DNA of 64,000 bases from Norana najaformis (Eukaryota; Annelida; Clitellata; Crassiclitellata; Hormogastridae), in assembly GCA_964023275.1 (NCBI GenBank), contig OZ029916.1, positions 18,796,686 through 18,860,685 on the forward strand, given 5' to 3'. The notes under the pieces were generated by a model. It was not told where the DNA came from. It saw nothing but the letters and a program-made list of their open reading frames with translations, and searched no databases. Shown piece by piece: positions 13,945 to 40,460 of the stretch (positions are counted from its first letter, which is position 1; each line of letters begins with the position of its first letter). Both the position numbers and the translations under genes were made by a program.

Positions 13945-14058
13945 CGAGTCGGAACGGTTGAGCATTTACAATATTACAGACTTTGTGCGAGACAGTTTAA
14001 GTTACTGTTTTATAAAACTATTATTACTTTATCCATTTAGATACAATACAGAACAGTA

Positions 14059-15657
14059 ATGCCTCGGAAGTGCGTAAATACTGTGGACAACTTTTGTTAC
14101 ATTTGTGGGGAAGTGACATTTGCCAACCAGAAGAAAAGTATCACTTATCAAGTCAAGAAGGCATATCATGCTTACTTCGAATGCAAGGTTGGTGACCAAG
14201 ACAAGCCATGGGCCCCGCATATATGCTGTGCTACATGTACAACACAGCTTTCACAGTGGTTGAATGGCAAAAGACCATCAATGCCGTTTGCAGTTCCCAT
14301 GGTGTGGAGAGAGCAAAGCAACCACGTAGATGACTGTTACTTCTGCTTGGTTCCTCCTCTTTCCGGTGGAATAACGAAGCAAAAGAAGTCGACAATAGTC
14401 TACCCAAACATTCCGTCAGCATTGAGACCAGTTCCACATGGTGATGGACTTCCTATTCCAGAACCTCCAGCAGAATATATTTTCCTTGATTCATCTGATG
14501 AGGACAAGGGTGAGCCGACATGTTCTTCTCCTGGTCCGTCAGCGTGCAGTGATCCCGATTTTCACTGTGGTGCATCATCAACCCCACACAGAATAACACA
14601 GGAAGAACTAAATGACCTTGTTCGTGATTTGGACTTATCCAAAAACAAGGCAGAATTGCTAGGATCAAGACTCCAACAATGGAATCTTCTAGAAGAAGAT
14701 GTCACAATTACTTCATATAGAAAGCGCCATCAGCAGTTGGAACGTTTCTTCATGAAGGAAGGTAATCTGGTATTCTGTTCCAATATTGACGACCTCATGA
14801 ATGCCTTACAGATCACTCATGACCCACAAGAATGGAGACTCTTTGTAGACTCTTCAACACTGAGTCTTAAGGCTGTGCTTTTGCACAATGGAAACCGTCT
14901 TCCATCTATTCCATTAGCGCATGCTGTCCACATGAAAGAGACATACGATAACCTAAAACAGCTACTGCATTCCATTGACTATAACAGGTACAAATGGCAC
15001 CTGTGTGGTGATTTGAAGGTAGTTGCCATTTTAATGGGACTGCAGCAAGGATATACAAAATATATGTGTTTCTTGTGTGAGTGGGATAGCCGAGCAAGAG
15101 AGTTGCACTACGTGCGGAAGGAATGGACTCCCAGACAAAACATGGCAGTTGGACAGAAGAATATCCAGCACCCAGCTCTGGTCGAGGCTCACAAAATCCT
15201 ACTACCACCCCTTCACATCAAACTAGGTTTGGTGAAGAACTTCGTGAAAGCCATGGACCGCACTTCGCCAGCTTTCCGATACCTGCATGAAAAATTCCCT
15301 CGACTCAGCGAAGCAAAGATTAAAGAGGGAGTTTTTGTGGGTCCTCAGATTAGAGAACTCTTCAAAGATGACCGCTGCAACAACTTGCTGGAGGGTGATG
15401 CGAAACAAGCATGGAATGCTTTTCGTCTAGTGTCTACAGACTTTCTGGGGAATGTTAGGGCAGAAAACTACAAGGAACTAGTAGAAGACATGCTCAAGCA
15501 GTACCAGAAATTTCGCTGCAATATGTCTCTGAAGATGCATTTCCTTCATTCCCATCTGGATTTCTTCCCTGACAACTGTGGTATGGTTAGTGACGAACAT
15601 GGCGAACGTTTTCATCAAGATATCGCAACAATGGAGCAAAGGTACCAGGGAAAATGA
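14059..15657 (+). CDS. Transposon-encoded cysteine-rich protein of an uncharacterised invertebrate family, truncated by TGA
   Basis: An intronless 532-codon frame that I recognise as a protein present in many copies in arthropod, hydrozoan and other invertebrate genomes, without known function. Visible features are an N-terminal CYICGE...HICCATC pair that could bind zinc (residues about 13-58), a CYFC pair near residue 94, an acidic/serine linker (about 140-175), a CFLCEW motif near residue 338, and SDEHGERFHQDIATME near the C-terminus. Spaced Asp/Glu/His residues hint at a nuclease core, but I cannot name the catalytic set. The frame stops at TGA (15655-15657). The next 30 codons stay open to TAG at 15748-15750 and read like the family's usual C-terminus (MLADYCWTLRRDAPEQ), with the TGA where tryptophan TGG is expected. 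The copy has probably just lost function. It lies inside the inverted repeats, so it is likely the element's transposase. Confidence 0.85.
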   Translation: MPRKCVNTVDNFCYICGEVTFANQKKSITYQVKKAYHAYFECKVGDQDKPWAPHICCATCTTQLSQWLNGKRPSMPFAVPMVWREQSNHVDDCYFCLVPPLSGGITKQKKSTIVYPNIPSALRPVPHGDGLPIPEPPAEYIFLDSSDEDKGEPTCSSPGPSACSDPDFHCGASSTPHRITQEELNDLVRDLDLSKNKAELLGSRLQQWNLLEEDVTITSYRKRHQQLERFFMKEGNLVFCSNIDDLMNALQITHDPQEWRLFVDSSTLSLKAVLLHNGNRLPSIPLAHAVHMKETYDNLKQLLHSIDYNRYKWHLCGDLKVVAILMGLQQGYTKYMCFLCEWDSRARELHYVRKEWTPRQNMAVGQKNIQHPALVEAHKILLPPLHIKLGLVKNFVKAMDRTSPAFRYLHEKFPRLSEAKIKEGVFVGPQIRELFKDDRCNNLLEGDAKQAWNAFRLVSTDFLGNVRAENYKELVEDMLKQYQKFRCNMSLKMHFLHSHLDFFPDNCGMVSDEHGERFHQDIATMEQRYQGK

Positions 15658-18512: not shown

Positions 18513-18638
18513 TTAAGGGCGAAGTCGATTCCTGTCTCGGTTGTTATTCTCCCTTTCTGCCCTCTGCTCTTCCGATTGGGTGGATGCCGTAGTTAGGGCT
18601 GTGTATGGAGGGAAGATGGTGTCCTGTTCCACCTTTTC
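18513..18638 (-). CDS. Candidate last exon of the STMC6-like gene
   Basis: On the minus strand GAATCTGCCTCAG at about 18651-18639 is a good acceptor. It is followed by 41 codons and TAA. The peptide starts EKVEQDTIFPPYTALTT and ends in a charged Asn/Arg-rich tail. The FPPY motif is close to, but is not, the PPxY motif common in the cytoplasmic tails of Shisa/CYYR1/VOPP1-type proteins. Against the model, this exon opens in phase 0, while the donors I see in the transmembrane exon end in phase 1 or 2, so an extra exon would be needed. Treat as a hypothesis. Confidence 0.3.
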   Translation of the reverse strand, partial: EKVEQDTIFPPYTALTTASTQSEEQRAERENNNRDRNRLRP

Positions 18639-18755
18639 CTGAGGCAGATTCACCCGACTTTGGCAGACAACGAAAAATAAAGCATTGACCTAGATTATTG
18701 AGACATTAATTAGTGATCCACTGGAGGATTCAGGTGAAACAAGAGTAGGAAGAGT

Positions 18756-18937
18756 AGGAGGAAGAGGAGAAGTAGGAGAATGGAGAATGAGGATGAGAAG
18801 GAAAAAATTCAGGATGATGACTACGACAAAGACAACGATAATGATGATGTGATGATGATGATGATGACTACGACGACGACAACGATAATAATGATGTGAT
18901 GATGATGACGACGATGAGGAGGAGGAAGAGGAGGAGA

Positions 18938-19028
<91 letters not shown>
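18756..19028. repeat. Compound (GAT)n/(GAC)n/(GAG)n microsatellite
   Basis: Purine-rich triplets end in a pure GAT run of about 29 units (18940-19028). Poly-His, poly-Ser, poly-Ile and poly-Met frames on both strands arise from it. It abuts the 3' side of the transmembrane exon of the minus-strand gene. Confidence 0.95.
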
Positions 19029-19030
<2 letters not shown>

Positions 19031-19048
19031 GTCCTGCGTTGTTCTGAC

Positions 19049-22000
19049 CAGCATGTAGCACAGCAGCGGTTGAGGATAGGTTGTCCTTCACAGATGTGAC
19101 TGTCCTTTCGAAAGCAAATCCAGATGACGACCGCTGTGATGATCACTCCAAACACAACACTCCAGATGATGATCTGCTGTATCCTGCCTCAGCAGCCACA
19201 CACACGGGCAGCAACAGATTAGATGGGCTCTGGTGGTTGAGCCAGGAGTTTGAGTTAGTAGGGGCCTGACCAATCAATTCTGGAAAGACTTAACTGGGTG
19301 AAGGTTAATAGTTAGGCCTTCCTTGATACTTCGATAAGATTGAATACGGATGAGAATAGATTTGGTGAGATGCGAAGGGATTAGCTAAGGATATAACACT
19401 ACCTCTGTGCAGGTTGTACCCCGTCTTATCTTAGGGAGCTATGTATTTCGGTCTCATCCGTACCTGCCCACAGATCCATTCGCTCTTCTGTGCAAGGTGA
19501 CCTGGTTGTCCCTCCGACCCAAACATCAACAGTCCATCATAAAGCTTTGCTGTGGTTGGTCCATCTTTCTGGAATAGTTTGCCTAGTAACCTACGACATG
19601 AGCTCATTGGCTTTTCTCTGCCTCTTTCCGTAAGGCATTCGGTTTCCTCTTGGTCTTGTGATAACAGGTCGAGAACGTCCCTGCGAAGTTTCTGCTGAAG
19701 CAACGCTATACAGATTTGTGATTAGACATACAGCTACGCCTACAATTACCTCAGATGTTAGAAGGGACAATTTCACTTCCATTTTCTCAGTACTAATTGC
19801 GTTCGTAATCCGTTCTCTTCCCTTGAGCCCCTCATGCCCTCTATCGTCTCCTTTCTCCCTCCCTTTCCGGGCTATAGAAGGACAGCGTCCGGTTCACATA
19901 CTAATTTTATAGTTGTATCAGCAGGTGGTTATAAGAGAACGGCGTGTTGTCCTGGGAAGTTGTTACTACTAATCATGGTATTGATTAGAAGCACGCAGTA
20001 TATTAATTTTAGCTTCTACTAGAAATAAGAAAATGTTAAAATATACGAATATTTATAAGCCTTTAGAATGGGGTCTAAATAAACGCCGCCTAATTTAAAA
20101 TGAAATTACTGAAAGTCGTCTAGGCCTATAGCCTAGTTGCTCAATGTATGGAATTGCTCCTGTGGATCAGGTGAGAGGAGCAGGCTGCTGAACTAGAGAC
20201 GAGAATTGATGGAGAGGTCTATGATAGAATATTACAATGCTTGTTTGCGAAATAATGCTATTCGAAGACTGGTGCACTGGTGGATCCAGAATTTGAGAAC
20301 GAATTTACCTTGGTCGATGTTTACTAAGGTGGAAAATTTCCTTTGACCCTTTCATTAGTCCTTGCACACTTTTGGAGTCGAGTACAAGGTGGTTTTGCCA
20401 AAATTTCTGGCTTTTTGAGTAATACCGCTATTTCCTTAACTTCTCGCTCTCTGCAACTCATTTACACGCTTTCTAATTTATCATTTCTGTGGGCAACCTT
20501 CGCCGAAACCGGTTTTGTAGGTGGAGGCAACTCAATGACGCGTGCTGCCCAAGTCAAATGGAAGCGCGATGGCCCAGATTCGCCTTTGATCAGGTGAGCC
20601 GAAGGATAAGCTCTGCAGCCCCTGAAGATCTGCAGGCGCCTCGCCACCGCACTTCAACCTTGAGCCCATCATGTCTTCTCCTGTGTTTTTGGATCGTCCT
20701 CATGGAACAGTCTGCCTTTGCATTACATACTGCTGCATTTGATTCTCTGCTCGGCTGACTTTTTCAATCGGTCTTATATCACACTTGTTTAGATCAGTTA
20801 GACAGTCACGTGTGCAGCGCTTTTGTGAGGTACTTGAATGCGCTACATGAAGTATTCTGATACATACATGCATACATACATTCATACATACATATAAACA
20901 TACATACATACATACATATAAACATACATACATACATACATACATTCATACATACATACATACATACATACATACATACATACATACATACATTCATACA
21001 TACATACATACATACATACATACATACATACTTGCATAAGAGAAGCCACAAGACGAGGCAGAGCAAGACTGGAGGAAGAGACGAATAAAGAAAATCTAAA
21101 GAGTAGCTGCTCACAGCGTCTGTGACGATGCATTCTCGCAGCAGGTGAACTGGTTGTCCTGTGTGCAGCATCTCGGTCGCCAGGTGTCGTTACAGTAGTA
21201 AACGTTGACCGGATATTCGGGGACCGTGGCGTCCCTCAAGCACTTCGTCGATCCTTAATTAAGCAAGTCATTATACAAGCCTTAGCAAAATCAGTTATTA
21301 CTAGGTGTAAGGCAGTGCAAGTACAGGGTTGTCGGCACGGGGGGGGGGGGGTGCCACATGGGCCATGACACCCGTTTGGAGCCAATCTATGGGGGCTTCC
21401 TAAAATGACATCTGCTCCAAGGGTACGGAAGTCTTTTCTGCCCATAGGTTTCTATTCAATTTCAATTTTGATTCACACAAATTGTAAAAGCATCGAGGAA
21501 CCAAAGGGCCATATGGTCTCAACCGGCGAGAGTCCTTTTGGCTCGAGATAATACATTCAGCCTAAAGGTCTTAGATTTTTAATTTAAATTGTAAAAATAA
21601 TGATAGAACCTTAAGGTTTCTGGGCACGATTTGCTAGCAACTTAATCATCGAGAGAGTCAGAATTCCTGCCATATTTGAGCAGCTTTTGCGCTTTTGGTC
21701 CTCACTTCTGACCGTAAATGTAAAATTATTTGATAGTTACATACCGGTTGAGCTAAAAGAGCCTAAGAGGTCTCAGAAGGAAAATCAGAAAAGCCACTCA
21801 AGCAAACGAAGAGGTAAACACTCAATAAAACACGAAAACGGCGAAGACTAAAAAAGGTAATTTGAAATTTTAGAGACTTGGAAAAGGTGCACGTAGAAAT
21901 TTTTGGCGATATAAAGTAGGTCAACAATCGTCCTTATTAGCCCCCTTCTGGCTGATGGCGCCAATGTCCTCATCTCAAAGCCATGTCAATGTTCTCATCT

Positions 22001-24344
22001 CAAAGCCATGTCAATGTTCTCATCTCAAAGCCATGTCAATGTTCTCATCTCAAAGCCATGTCAATGTTCTCATCTCAAAGCCATGTCAATGTTCTCATCT
22101 CAAAGCCATGTCAATGTTCTCATCTCAAAGCTATGTCAATGTTCTCATCTCAAAGCCATGTCAATGTTCTCATCTCAAAGCTATGTCAATGTTCTCATCT
22201 CAAAGCCATGCCGTTGACCTCATCTCAAAGCCATGCCGATGACCTCATCTCATAGCCATGTCAATGTTCTCATCTCAAAGCCATGTCAATGTTCTCATCT
22301 CAAAGCCATGTCAATGTTCTCATCTCAAAGCCATGTCAATGTTCTCATCTCAAAGCTATGTCAATGTTCTCATCTCAAAGCCATGTCAATGTTCTCATCT
22401 CAAAGCTATGTCAATGTTCTCATCTCAACGCCATGCCAATGTCCTCATCTCAAAGCCATGCCAATGTTCTCATCTCAAAGCCATGCCAATGTCCTCATCT
22501 CAAAGTCATGTCGATGTTCTCATCTCATAGCCATGCCAATGTCCTCATCTCAAAGTCATGTCAATGTTCTCATCTCATAGCCATGCCAATGTCCTCATCT
22601 CACAGCCATGCCGATGTCCTTCACCCCGAAAAAGGGCGCATATCGGATTTCATGCCAACCTCATTTCTCGACGCTTAACATGACATGGCATAACATCACT
22701 GGGTTTTGAAGAAGTTCAGAAGATATAATTATTATCTGTGTTAGAACCACATCAAATGGGTGCGTAACTAACAATTTCCACATGCGAATACTGCGACGTC
22801 CATGCAACATGTATGACATGTATGCAAAGCTGGAAACGCGCCCAATGTCCAGAAGATCCATCTACAAACGTTCTAGCAACATCATTGTTAAAGATTTTCA
22901 GAAATTTGTCAGTATTTGTCGCAATAGGAAACTTCCGAATTTATGGACCGCCTTAGACTTGTTTTTGAGGAAGCGACAATCGATCAATACCCATAACTTG
23001 ATACCACGAGTATTTGTGTTCTGCAGAAGAATTAGGCAAACATAAAAATAGTTCCGGAAGAATCCACGGACGAAAATATCTGAAATGACAAACATTTATG
23101 CGCAGGTGAAAGAGAGCGGTAGGCTTGCTTACAATGCGTAGCTGGAACAAAGGAATAAGTTCTTACAAAGGGCCTAGGGCTATTGACTATGTATCGTATG
23201 AAACCTACACGTTCGTTGTGTATGCAAGGCGCTTTGTTCGACATTATACAAAGGGAGGCCTCAAGTTCCAGGCAAATAACAGGCGATCGATGTTGCCGAC
23301 AATAAAACTCTAGTTACATAATGACATTCTCCAAGAACACACAAAAATGTGCTGCCGATGAAAGCCCTGTGCTGTATAAATCGTCACTGAAGAGATGCTT
23401 GACGGCGTTTCGTGCAGCAATCAATCTATCTCTTCCACTGCGACTGTCAACAAACTATGCACCTGACATGAATTAATAAGCCTATATTTATCGACCTGTA
23501 TTCTAATGATGATTTGTATGTAGCCTACAATAACATTGAATTAGGGCCTAAATAATTAACTCATACCCGTATAGAGACTCTTCAACATATCTAGCGCATT
23601 CTATTTACAGAATCCTATACGACTTGGACCTGTATTTGCACGTCAAAGGTGCTGCGTGGATTGTTTAGTTGTTTCAGTGCAGGAATTAACTGCAAGTTGC
23701 AAATATGACTCAGTCACGTAGGAAATTTAACTCACCTTAAAATTAATTTATGTATGAATGACCAGTATAGTATATAAAAGAGATATACATGTTCCTTTCT
23801 TTGTTTCTTTGTTTTCTTTCTCTCTTAGTCTCTGGATCTTTTCTCTTATCCTAGCTTATCATATTATTTCTAGGGGCTACATACGTCGTCATCGTCATAT
23901 CCAGATAGCAGGGAGCCATGTAGATGAAACTTTGGCAAGGGTCTCAGCGACTAAAGGATCTAATATTTTTAATGTAGCTTTAAGCTTTGAGAAGGCGTTC
24001 GATTTGCTTCGACATGCTCCTGCATATAACCACGCCCATGCAGAAGCCTCAAAATCAATGAACAAGTATTATACCCGTTGGAACATCACAATATCATGCA
24101 ACTATATTTTAGGGCCGACTGAGAGCTGACTGCGTCACAGCATGAAGAAAACAATCTGCGATCATCGATTGTAGTTTTGCGTCAGACATGTTCGGTGTAC
24201 ACGTGTAGTCTTCGACAGTGAGACAACTGGTCGCTCTTTGAAACGTCTCCTTCTAAGAAATAGCCTATATGATGCAGTTTTATCGATCAGAAAACGCGCC
24301 GCATTCAACCTCTGCTGCCGTTGCTACTGTTGTTGTTGTTGTTG

Positions 24345-24384
<40 letters not shown>

Positions 24385-27300
24385 AAGGAAACCACCTATC
24401 CATCATCACTCACATCATAAATCTTCAAAGCACGCAAGCGGCATTGTTTGAGACCAAAACCTCGTGGCTTACGTTCGTTTCAGAACAGTTCTCTGCAAAA
24501 AAATTGGATCGATAGGACAGTAACCTATTCGCAGTTATAGCGAATCAGTAATGTTCCGGAAATTAGTCTGAGGCGTGACCGTGTGATTGAAGTGTTTGTC
24601 ACCGAAGCGGATACACAGCAACAAATAATGCAATGGGCCCCATGGCGTCAAGACGTTTCGTCAGTTCCGCATGAGGCGTAGTGATTTCAGGCAGAGCAAA
24701 TGCCAACGCATTAACACAACACTGCCAAAAATGTTCCCATTTGCTTAAGACTTTTTCTTAAAGTAGACAAATTGGCGAACGAACAGCCCTCGAGTTTTTA
24801 GATTTCCCAAGTAAACCACACAGCTTCCTTAAAACAAAGATTAGGCTATACATTGTATCAGGCCCGGCCCTAAAGTAGCCTATGCGGGGCCCGAGGCAGC
24901 AAGCGATGAGCGGGACCCATGCAAAAAATTGCATTTCGACATATATTAAAATAATGCGAAATCCAAAATAAATTGGTTAATGAATACATTTTACAAAATG
25001 TAAATCAGCCTCAAAAGTCAAAATACTAAAATTTTTACTATGAGAGCAACAATTAACAGTTTTATTCATTTAATTGAATATATGAAAACTCAAAAAAGAT
25101 CTTAATAATTAAAATATTTTGGTATGCTAATTCAAAGTTTGTTTATCAATATACTGCACAGACACTAGCGTGGGTTGTATCTTCTACTTAAAATGTTTTT
25201 ACTACTCACAAGCAAATCTTGCGAGCATTGATGGATGCAAAATCCGCAATGAGTTCATTATAGTCAAGATCGTTAGCAACATCATTCTCAATTGACAAAA
25301 TAGCCAAGGTAGTGAGCCTTTCTTGAAGCACCGTTGGTCGCATGTAGGTTTTGATAAGTTTTAGCTTCGAAAAGCTTCTTTCTCCAGAAGCCACGGTGAC
25401 ATGAACAGTCAAAAGTATTCGAAGTGCAATGTGTGTGTTAGGAAAGTCACTGTATCTCTTGTTTATTGAAAGAAACTGCAAAATCTTAACGGGATCGTTG
25501 TAGGTGTCTGCAGGAATTATGGAACTCAATGATTGCAACTTCTCGGCAAGCATGAAACCATCAAGATCCTTAATTAATAGGTGTCAGTTTAAAATAGAAG
25601 GATAAAATGTTTAATGTCACAGACATAGTAATATAGTATCCAAATATAATACACGTGCACTTTGTATTGGAAGAAATTCCTATACACCATACAGGGTTGA
25701 AAATTTAAAAAATGGTTTCACAGGAATTAACAGTGCAGACTGTGCAGTTCTCGCTATACTAAGCCTATTTCAGTTAAATCTTCATTGATACTACAAGCGG
25801 TTTTAATAATAATTGTAATTTAATTAGGCCTGCTTTTCAATGATAAACAGAAAAGAATACTGAATACAAGCAGGGATGGATTCGTTCCAAACTATGAATA
25901 TGAATGACACAATAAAACAAATTTAACATTGCAATATTTTATCTATTCCATATTTTAAAAGATATCTTGTTTACCTCGCCTGAATTAAAAGCAAGCTGCA
26001 TGCAGACAGCAGACCATGAAAATGATGTATTAAAACAACGTTGTCTTCCTGCTGTTCTATGACAGTGTACATTTATATCGCGTATTCTTAATGATAACAG
26101 TTTTAAATCTATGGTATTGGCAGGTAATTTATTATTACGCTATTTTTTATCCTGCAATATAAACAGATTCCCAAAAATAAATAATTCATTTATTATAAAG
26201 TTTTCTTAATACTGTTGATAAAAAACAAAAAAATAGTAAAAATATTTAATCAGAAGCGCGGGGCCCCTGAAAGCGCGGGGCCCAAGGCGGTTGCCTCGTT
26301 CGCCTTGCCCTAAGGCCGGGCCTGCATTGTATTGCGAATAGAAAAGAGATATGTGGTGTTCTAACTAACCCATACAGTTTGCAGGGCCATTTGTCATACC
26401 CTTACCTTACCTAAAAACTTGAGAGGCGCAAGTGAAAGGGTTGCTCGCGGATACGTATGCATATAGCTTGTATTGTACAATTTAAGAAGCCATCCTTTTA
26501 TCGTTGGAATGCAGTGGTAATTTCTGCTCTTCAGTTTAATGGTCCTCATCATCTCTATAATAATATAATATATAATAATATGTGTGATAATATAACATAC
26601 ATAATTTGTTGGAGAGAAATGAGGCAAGAACTCATTTAGGGTCGATGCCTCCCCGGCCTTCCATGTAGAGGTGTCACTGTTTCAGCCAACAGAAAATCGA
26701 ACTAATAACAACACCTATATATATTATATAAAAGATTATAGCCAATCACAATTCCTGCTCAGTTCCAATTCAGTCAGTTTCGTTTCCCCTCCACTGTTTG
26801 CGCCAATGGAGGTCTCACAAGATAAGAAACTGTTATGGGGTCAGTTGCTGGTCCTAGATTCTGCACACAGTTGCTCATCCGACAGGAGATATAGGGTTTT
26901 TATGCCCCCTGTCCAAATTAAAAGGGTTTGGTTAATTCCTGCTTGAGGTTTACCAGTATTTGGTCGGCCTTGTGTTCGACTCAATACTCAGCTGATGTGT
27001 ATGTGAGTTAAATTTAGCTCTTGTTTTGCTCAAACAAAATTATAGACTCATTTGTTTTATCTTCGCTTAATATTTAAACAGTGGCGGATTTAGCTATGGG
27101 CGTGGGGAGGGGCGGTTCGCCTCGCGCCCTTCTTGGTTATATGCCGGGTCCCTCATACCAGACCCATGCATGGTGGACTGCCATAATATGGCGCCCCTCT
27201 GGAATGCCCTTGCCCCAAGGCAAGCACTCCTGGATCCGCCACTGTATTTAAGTATATATTGGCTGAACCGTTTGGTGTTATTTCTTTGTGCTCCGTCGTT

Positions 27301-27511
27301 CGTCTATTTTTCTTATTTATTTGGTTATTTACAATGGATCTATAAAATATTTTACTTATGGGTTTCTGTTAGAATTGCGATTATTATTCTCCAGGTAGCT
27401 ATCTATCTTTTTTAATAAAACGGAAGTAAAATACTTACGCGACACGTGACCCCAAATCAAGAGGAGACTGGAAACAGTCATAAAAGTTTTCGTTGTTGAT
27501 TTCATGATCAT
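19049..27511 (-). CDS. STMC6 (Shisa/CYYR1/VOPP1-like) single-pass membrane protein, three exons, 3' end unresolved
   Basis: Exon 1 (27511-27439) starts at ATG with an in-frame TAG 15 bases upstream and encodes a 24-residue signal peptide: KSTTK, then a hydrophobic FMTVSSLLLIWGHVS. It ends after one base of a codon at a strong donor, C|GTAAGT. Exon 2 (21253-21115) takes two bases, encodes six cysteines as C-x15-C-x7-CC-x7-CC (residues 29, 45, 53, 54, 62, 63) and two N-glycosylation sequons (N46, N65), and ends at CT|GTGAGC. Exon 3 starts at 19183 after GAGGCAG in the matching phase and encodes a membrane helix (IIIWSVVFGVIITAVVIW, about residues 75-92) then CFRKDSHICEG. Signal peptide, six cysteines with CC pairs, one helix and a short tail are the STMC6 layout; such proteins act as transmembrane adaptors in receptor or endosomal trafficking. 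The end of exon 3 is uncertain: a donor GTCAGA at 19048, or GTGAAG earlier. Family assignment rests on layout, not on a search. Confidence 0.62.
19480..19690 (+). mobile_element. LINE ORF2 C-terminal remnant
   Basis: The plus strand reads SFWNSLPSNLRHEL near 19568-19610, resembling the 'W-N-x-L-P' motif near the C-terminus of L2/CR1-type ORF2. Frames are broken on both sides. It lies in intron 2 of the minus-strand gene. Confidence 0.4.
20620..20850 (+). mobile_element. Retroposon 3' end ahead of the CATA microsatellite
   Basis: Contains TTTAGATCAGTTAGACA and a GAGGTACTTGAATGCGCTAC variant of the block seen at 6.8 kb, then runs straight into the CATA repeat, which may have grown from its tail. 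Confidence 0.45.
20861..21030. repeat. (CATA)n microsatellite
   Basis: About 170 bp of CATA tetranucleotides with few interruptions (CATT, TATAAA). It lies 85 bp beyond the donor of the six-cysteine exon. The Met-Tyr-Val-Cys frames on the minus strand are artefacts. Confidence 0.95.
21254..21960. other. Intron 1 of the STMC6-like gene, minisatellite-proximal part
   Basis: No coding segment seen. A run of 13 or so G lies at about 21340-21351. The acceptor for exon 2 (minus strand TTAATTAAG, 21262-21254) has a weak pyrimidine tract. Confidence 0.5.
21961..22620. repeat. 25-bp minisatellite, about 26 copies
   Basis: The unit is CTCATCTCAAAGCCATG followed by TCAATGTT. Inner copies are nearly identical, apart from CCATG/CTATG variants. 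Copies near 22201-22250 and after 22430 carry TGCCAATGTCC or TGCCGATGACC variants. Because 25 is not a multiple of three and the unit has no stop in any forward phase, all three plus frames stay open; these frames are not genes. It lies within intron 1 of the minus-strand gene. Confidence 0.97.
22621..24320. other. Intron 1 of the STMC6-like gene, no recognised feature
   Basis: Several short open frames on both strands have no recognisable domain. I see no mobile-element ends here. Confidence 0.45.
24322..24384. repeat. (TGT)n then (CTG)n triplet repeat
   Basis: About six TGT units are followed by about twelve pure CTG units (24348-24384). Within intron 1 of the minus-strand gene, where the transcript would carry CAG. 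Confidence 0.95.
24859..26324 (-). mobile_element. hAT transposon, internally decayed, with intact 8-bp target duplication
   Basis: The left end begins CAGGCCCGGCCC and the right end, on the other strand, CAGGCCCGGCCT; GC-rich GGGGCCC-type blocks follow at both ends. CATTGTAT flanks both sides exactly (24851-24858 and 26325-26332), the 8-bp duplication expected of hAT elements. The 1466-bp body keeps only the end of the transposase on the minus strand. It sits in intron 1 of the STMC6-like gene, in the same orientation. Confidence 0.93.
25206..25553 (-). pseudogene. hAT transposase C-terminal dimerisation domain fragment
   Basis: An open frame of 115 codons holds the typical hAT C-terminal dimerisation signature: an ALRILLT block, then VASGERSFSKLKLIKTYMR, then LAILSIENDVANDLDY. 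This resembles the end of ZMYM1-like hAT transposases. Coding sense extends a few codons upstream (KDLDGF) to an AG at about 25572, perhaps an old exon border. The BED finger and RNase-H-like catalytic core are absent from the element, so it cannot be autonomous. Confidence 0.88.
27079..27244. mobile_element. hAT-type MITE, copy 2
   Basis: The 166-bp element has inverted ends CAGTGGCGGAT and ATCCGCCACTG. Flanking octamers TATTTAAA (27071-27078) and TATTTAAG (27245-27252) match at seven of eight bases. It is a better preserved copy of the element at 2365-2527 and carries no gene. Inside intron 1 of the minus-strand gene, about 195 bp from its signal-peptide exon. Confidence 0.85.
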
Positions 27512-38869: not shown

Positions 38870-40460
38870 GTAGAGCGCACACCAAAGCCTTGAATTAGTT
38901 ATTACGTAGAGAGAAGTTAAATTTATCCTTTGCTGTGTATTCGACTATCCATGAGCTTGCTAATGAATACTTCACCTTCTTTGTAGATAAAATTTCTGGT
39001 ATAAAGCTGAAATATTTTGATTACTTGGTATAATGATAAATTTCCTCATCTTAATTTTTCATCTCCTGTCTTGCCATGGAGAATCATTCCTACGTCTCTT
39101 CTGAAAGAGTGATTTGATGTCCTAGGTCCAACCATCACATCAGTTATCATTTTCTCATTGCATTTCTTCCCATCTGCTCTTACTTATGTCATGGTTCATC
39201 CTCTGTTAAAGAATTCGTCTCTCGACCTCGAATTTTGTATTTAAACCTCTAGAACGGGTAGTTATGAATCGCATGTAAACTAACCTATCTTTTAACTCCT
39301 AATATACTCCGTTCAATGGTGCATACCGTAAGATTCATTTAGCAGAAACTCCCCATCTTGCTTTTCGTAATGATATTATGTATTCTATTGACAAGGGTAG
39401 AATGACAGCACTTGTTCTTCTTGATTTGTCTACTGCTTTTGATACTGTGGACCGTTCTCTTCTTTTGAATCACCTCCAGCACTGGTTTGGGGTTTCTGGT
39501 TTCGCCCTACATTGTTTTGCTACTTATCTCAGTCCAGGCACTCAATCTGTAGTTTTAAATGGTAATCATTCGTCTAGTGCTTTTGTTGACATGTGGCGTC
39601 CCACGGGGTTTTGTGCTTCGTCCTCTTTTGGTACACTATACATCACACCATTATGTACATTTCTTGACAATCAGTCACTAGAATATCGTTAACTTTCTAT
39701 GTTGATGATACTTTTCATTTGCTAGTTTGTCTTGTAACTTGTCTGTGCAGTTGTTGTCCACTGCCTCTATAACCCTTCGAAAACTGAATTTCTACTCATG
39801 GGCACTTAAGAAGCTAGATTGGTGACTTACTGGTTGAATTGGCTGGTTCTGCACGTGACCTAGGCGTTGGTTTTGATTCTACTATCTCTCCCTGTCTACG
39901 TTATTTGTGGTAATCGTAATCGTAATCGTAATCGACTACTGTAGTGCGATCTATGCGGGCTTACCTTTGGGGCGTATTGGGCATCTACGGCGCGTGATTC
40001 GTGCGGTTACAAGGTTTGTTGGTGGCATCTCCAAGTCCAAGTGTGACTATGTTTTTGCATTATGCGTGATATACTTCATTGGCTTCGCAGTTCATCGAAT
40101 TTAAGATTTCGGTGTGGGTCTGACGATGTCAGTTGGGGGATGCTCCTTCATTCTTGTGTGAGCTTTGTTGCCCTGTTTCCGTTTTGGCTGGACGCGGAAG
40201 TCTTCGTACGGCGACCCGAGGCGAAATTGTTGTTGCTTTTACACACACTAGGATAATGCAACGTCGTGCCTTCTCGGTGGTTGGACTCTCGACGTGGAAT
40301 GACCTCCCTCTTCATCTGCATGTCCTTCTAGCGAGAGATGCTAGAGACACTTTTCACCAGCAGTTAAAAACTGTTCTCTTTCGCCGAAGCTGGCTGAGAG
40401 CGCCTCTGAGTATACTATTTGAAGGGGCGCTATATAAATGCTCTGAATGAATGAATGAAT
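38870..40460 (+). mobile_element. L2/CR1-type LINE, most of ORF2 with its 3' end
   Basis: Read across several frames, the plus strand holds in order: ANEYFTFFVDKIS (38960-39000), the LPCWRIIPTSLLKE block (39070-39105), FFPSALTYVMVHPLLKNSSL (39165-39220), VLLDLSTAFDTVDRSLLLNH (palm, 39412-39470), a YVDD catalytic box (39699-39710), DYCSAIYAGLPLGRIGHLRR (39937-39990), a 'NDLPLHLHV' C-terminal motif near 40300, and a 3' end GGGGCGCTATATAAATGC with GAATGAATG tail (40424-40460). The fourth TAATCG run at 39907-39937 stands where about 40 codons seem lost. Frameshifts and stops disable it. Confidence 0.88.

Follow-up and report, generated by a model that had tools for sequence, protein, structure and literature searches.

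We found that the minus strand of a 64,000-nucleotide (nt) stretch of the Norana najaformis genome (contig OZ029916.1, positions 18,796,686 to 18,860,685; the whole of this stretch is called the window here) carries a gene that probably has four exons and encodes a type I single-pass membrane protein of approximately 163 residues, with a short six-cysteine head. As judged from sequence comparison, the spliced gene is real, being supported by a paralogue elsewhere in the genome and by purifying selection. The best explanation of the data, and one that we consider fairly probable, is that this real, probably four-exon gene encodes a Shisa-like adaptor that would sort or turn over a partner receptor. 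The parts of the gene model, in window coordinates, are as follows.

Exon 1 (predicted), 27439..27511, minus strand: 73 nt; start codon and signal-like peptide MIMKSTTKTFMTVSSLLLIWGHVS; ends in phase 1 at the donor CGC^GTAAGT; seen in the window only.
Exon 2, 21115..21253, minus strand: 139 nt; six-cysteine lumenal domain; phase 1 in and phase 2 out; donor GCT^GTGAGC; matched by the paralogue with the same phases.
C-x15-C-x7-CC-x7-CC core, 21138..21242, minus strand: residues 29-63.
Exon 3, 19049..19183, minus strand: membrane helix, CFRKDSHICE juxtamembrane stretch and cysteine cluster; acceptor GGCAG^G; predicted donor CTG^GTCAGA in phase 2.
Membrane helix, 19117..19173, minus strand: residues 75-93; highest 19-residue hydropathy 2.81.
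Exon 4 (predicted), 18513..18657, minus strand: cytoplasmic tail to a TAA stop codon; acceptor CTTTATTTTTCGTTGTCTGCCAAAG^T; seen in the window only.
FPPYTAL, 18594..18614, minus strand: near-PY sequence (xPxY, not [LP]PxY) overlapping the YxxPhi sorting-type motif YTAL.

When joined, the four exons, separated by introns of 6185, 1931, and 391 bases, form a single open frame of 163 predicted residues, in which a signal-like N terminus is followed by the six-cysteine head, a helix at about residues 75-93 (IIIWSVVFGVIITAVVIWICF), and CFRKD. The sequons of the predicted protein are N46-D-T and N65-A-S, and the cysteine cluster behind the juxtamembrane stretch reads CCATCC. An earlier reading of the window from its letters (the sequence-only reading) had proposed a gene of three exons, and all three of its placements held: exon 1 lies at 27511-27439 with an in-frame stop upstream and a GTAAGT donor, exon 2 lies at 21253-21115 with the cysteine spacing and both sequons where they had been reported, and exon 3 runs from 19183 with one membrane helix and then CFRKD, the splice phases 1 and then 2 fitting between them. 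However, that model was incomplete, as a fourth exon at 18657-18513, with the FPPYTAL tail, is likely. Without a splice at 19049, exon 3 reads into a GAT repeat, while the acceptor at 18657, with 17 pyrimidines of 22, opens a phase-2 frame that runs to a stop at 18515-18513, coinciding with the lower limit of the interval previously given for the gene. The GC content of exons 2 to 4 is 0.56, 0.48, and 0.52, respectively, compared to 0.40, 0.44, and 0.42 in their flanks.

The assembly that we searched contains 608,420,607 bases in 17 contigs, with the window on contig C4. Using the core of the predicted protein as a query, we found three matches at an E value of up to 0.001, namely, exon 2 and exon 3 of the window and positions 31348035-31348166 of contig C6. 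The last of these is a cysteine exon (E = 5.5e-12, 56% identity to exon 2) that has a phase-1 acceptor, a GTAAGT donor in phase 2, and six cysteines, with x16 replacing x15. A membrane exon (50% identity, E = 7e-14) lies 899 nt downstream on the same strand; it keeps the helix, has its acceptor and its donor in phase 2, and extends several codons beyond exon 3 of the window. The C6 locus repeats the exon order, strand, and phases, and therefore both phases of the sequence-only reading recur there, together with the phase-2 end that we propose for exon 3. Common to the two copies is also a C[FY]RK[DE][ST]HICE stretch with cysteines behind it (CFARCCPCCDCC on C6).

We then compared exons 2 and 3 of the two copies over an alignment of 88 codons, which leaves out one extra residue of the C6 paralogue and the unaligned ends. 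Identical residues are encoded by 46 of these codons, and the 104 base differences are distributed across the codon positions as 27, 28, and 49. The NG86 estimates of nonsynonymous (dN) and synonymous (dS) divergence were 0.42 and 1.83, a ratio of 0.23, and the LWL85 estimates were 0.38 and 1.45, with dS near saturation. When the same number of differences was placed at random in 2000 trials, the number of identical residues had a mean of 27.7 and a maximum of 38, compared to the 46 observed. The remaining five frames of the alignment scored 46 to 108, compared to 288 for the proposed frame, and each was interrupted by stops in one or both copies. Together, these comparisons indicate that the reading frame of exons 2 and 3 has been kept by purifying selection.

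The sequence-only reading had also held that the fit of phases and domain order was unlikely to arise by chance; taken by itself, the window bears this out less strongly than that reading assumed. By itself, the cysteine pattern is only moderately rare, since the strict C*C*CC*CC pattern with loose spacing, which occurs once in the window, has a mean of 0.075 occurrences per random 64 kb (three matches, in 2 of 40 sequences of 64 kb each generated with a second-order model), and this is insufficient to carry a gene claim. Nor is exon 1 the only signal-like candidate, as a crude filter over the 20 kb upstream returned 16 rows, of which 12 fall in one low-complexity MYVC-type repeat, 2 correspond to exon 1, which has two in-frame ATGs, and the last 2 mark an alternative start near 25285. 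Both of these results would suit a chance assembly of unrelated open stretches. Exons 2 and 3 are beyond chance, however, because the C6 paralogue carries both of them with order, strand, and phases preserved, which refutes a chance origin for this pair; it is conceivable for exons 1 and 4 alone, and as an account of the locus we regard it as very improbable.

We also used the C6 paralogue as a query and, with E values of up to 10, found eight matches, of which two are on C6, two are in the window copy on C4, two are on C2, and one each is on C10 (E = 0.014) and C1 (E = 0.18). The match on C10 was dropped as chance, as it contains stops and has no cysteine pattern. The C2 locus, near 34131534-34132400, is an intron-bearing duplicate of the C6 locus; its cysteine exon is disrupted by an insertion, and it contains in-frame stops and has lost the helix. 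A gapped alignment with C6 gave identities of 0.90 and 0.88 for the exon pair and of 0.88, 0.87, and 0.785 for stretches of intron (the BLAST pieces of the region were 71-86% identical); exons and introns are similarly diverged, as expected for decay without selection. The existence of this broken third copy would fit a reading of the window locus as a pseudogene, a decayed or nonexpressed copy that has retained an old coding frame, as would the weak acceptor and donor of exon 2 and the simple repeat that starts approximately 20 nt into intron 3. We consider a pseudogene improbable, because every exon of the window copy is open, its phases are intact, and the differences between it and the C6 copy are in excess at third positions, in contrast to the insertion, stops, lost helix, and like divergence of exon and intron on C2. 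The C2 locus exemplifies a dead copy in this genome, and the copy in the window does not resemble it.

Several features of the locus weigh against the complete gene model. The acceptors of exons 2 and 3 have just 13 and 11 pyrimidines of 22, respectively, the exon 2 donor matches at 5 of 9 positions, and there is no AATAAA-type signal until 1047 nt past the stop. Exon 1 is weakened by a GC content (0.41) that does not differ from that of its flanks (0.42). No C6 counterpart of the tail exon emerged over approximately 19 kb downstream, where the best phase-2 frame scored 29, compared to 28-50 for 30 shuffled tails, and no secure signal exon was found at C6, where the candidates are at -531 (with a weaker donor and outside the filtered list) and at -7455. 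When exon 4 was used as a query against the assembly, the only match was exon 4 itself. What had been called a clean signal peptide stands as a signal-like N terminus, as suggested by its hydropathy, donor, and position. The evidence for exons 1 and 4 comes from the window, and exon 1 is less secure than exons 2 and 3.

Inside intron 1 of the gene, at window positions 25206-25583 on the minus strand, lies a hAT transposase dimerisation fragment (PF05699, E = 4e-11), and a 25-base tandem repeat with 26 copies and 92% matches occupies positions 21962-22617, less than 1 kb upstream of exon 2. On the plus strand, a 538-codon open frame at 14041-15657, which begins with a cysteine-rich segment and has no above-threshold Pfam match, is probably a mobile-element gene, and there is a weak reverse transcriptase fragment at 39303-39692 (PF00078, E = 0.014, below the cut-off). 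Rfam and tRNA scans of the window returned no matches.

The sequence-only reading had placed the protein in the STMC6 type. In the available portions of two papers, Shisa-like (STMC6) proteins are described as having a signal peptide, a C*C*CC*CC head, one helix, and a short tail (PMC5578492, PMC6991692). In both the window protein and the C6 paralogue, we found six lumenal cysteines in the C*C*CC*CC order, and a single membrane helix lies behind the head; the protein thus has the order and layout of that type, but Pfam gave only subthreshold matches. The best of these was to CYYR1 (PF10873), with an E value of 0.035 for a 74-residue cut, far below the 31-bit cut-off of that model, and of 4 for an early version of the whole protein. 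CYYR1 was missing from the results for a 91-residue cut, for the final version of the whole protein, and for the C6 paralogue, and the matches to Collectrin (E = 0.075-0.23), DUF6534, a holin model, and POLO_box were equally weak.

An adaptor assignment has to be set against the following results. No Pfam family was above threshold for the protein, its cuts, or the C6 paralogue, NCBIfam gave no matches, and hhalign against VOPP1, WBP1, and CYYR1 sequences gave a probability of 2%, albeit with very shallow profiles of two and three rows. A search of PDB by sequence returned five matches, none of them convincing (the best, an aminotransferase, had an E value of 0.065). For the head, structure prediction gave a small, strand-rich unit of 45 residues with a mean predicted local distance difference test score (pLDDT) of 72 (46-58 for the other four models), and a search of PDB by fold with this model found no matches. 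Finally, the strict [LP]PxY motif is absent from the 163 residues, the tail having only FPPY, and P-x-Y is present in 8% of shuffled tails.

The missing Pfam and profile matches and the absence of a strict PY motif would also be expected of a cysteine-rich type I membrane protein from an unrelated family, one that had reached the C*C*CC*CC layout by convergence and would act as a receptor or cell surface ligand rather than a sorting adaptor. We regard such a protein as rather unlikely. The order of parts in the window protein and its single short six-cysteine head agree with the published description, as far as the text of those papers available to us extends (PMC5578492, PMC6991692). In addition, VOPP1 and CYYR1 themselves barely reach the WBP-1 model (E = 0.0096 and 0.0028, respectively), so the accepted members of this loose group resemble one another hardly more closely. 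On balance, the protein is probably a divergent Shisa-like trafficking adaptor. We infer this function from layout.

Other assignments were tried and rejected. Shisa proteins proper in zebrafish have eight cysteines, in the order C*C*CC*C*CC*C, according to the portion of the source available (PMC10531659); the window protein has six lumenal cysteines and no match to PF13908 (Shisa_N) at an E value of up to 10, while Shisa5 scores 37 bits. A canonical PPxY tail in exon 4 was rejected because a pattern test found FPPY only, and a bacterial or viral origin was rejected because pattern searches gave 36 stretches in genome contigs and 106 in viral contigs, none of which was confirmed. Our search of the literature by family name found nothing like this protein, and we call it unnamed in that sense alone.

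If the protein is such an adaptor, the signal peptide would direct the short head, with its disulphide bonds, into the lumen, the helix would anchor the protein, and the cysteines under the membrane might be palmitoylated. The FPPYTAL tail would couple the protein to the sorting machinery via YTAL, which we take to fit a YxxPhi sorting signal, and perhaps weakly via WW-domain proteins, so that a partner receptor would be sorted or turned over, as by Shisa-like adaptors. The accessible text of several reports describes WBP1L and CYYR1 as binding NEDD4-family ligases via PY motifs (PMC5578492, PMC6991692, PMC11399591), with the outcome that a receptor or the ligase itself is steered to degradation (PMC6991692, PMC11399591). 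Palmitoylation is suggested because RK[DE][ST]HICE and the cysteines behind it are kept between the paralogues, by analogy with what the available passages say of WBP1L (PMC6991692) and of the cysteine clusters of Shisa-1 to -5 (PMC10531659).

One survey, in the part available, reports few invertebrate Shisa genes, with one or two per protostome species having them (PMC7653359). The presence of one paralogue and one broken copy, with no match to a named family, is compatible with the lineage-specific branch that the sequence-only reading had suggested. We tentatively raise the possibility that the gene belongs to an unnamed lineage-restricted branch of six-cysteine adaptors, marked by RK[DE][ST]HICE and the cysteine cluster, in which the WW-binding PY motif may have been traded for the tyrosine sorting signal FPPYTAL. 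If real, this branch would add to the kinds of tail by which six-cysteine adaptors might function. Small cysteine-rich membrane adaptors with tiny exons and long introns are a type of gene that predictors easily miss, and here a gene proposed from raw sequence was borne out by a second locus in the same genome.

Among known systems, VOPP1, WBP1, and WBP1L share with this protein the C*C*CC*CC head and one helix. Their tails carry PY-type motifs, whereas its tail has the near-PY FPPY and lacks strict motifs; there is also no profile match, and the cysteine spacing differs from theirs. The helix aromatics are clustered in VOPP1 and WBP1 and spread out in the window protein. A four-aromatic motif is named for the membrane helix of the WBP1-VOPP1 subgroup in the portion of the source available (PMC5578492). 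CYYR1 (PF10873), the best subthreshold Pfam match of the 74-residue core, likewise has a short cysteine-rich head, one helix, and a short tail, behind a signal peptide to which the signal-like N terminus here would correspond, but its cysteine spacing is shorter, and it has three PPxY motifs according to the text available (PMC11399591), compared to no strict motif here. Shisa proteins proper differ in having, in zebrafish, eight cysteines rather than six; like them, the window protein has a cysteine-rich head, a helix, and cysteines near the membrane, with the same CC-x7-CC spacing as in Shisa5.

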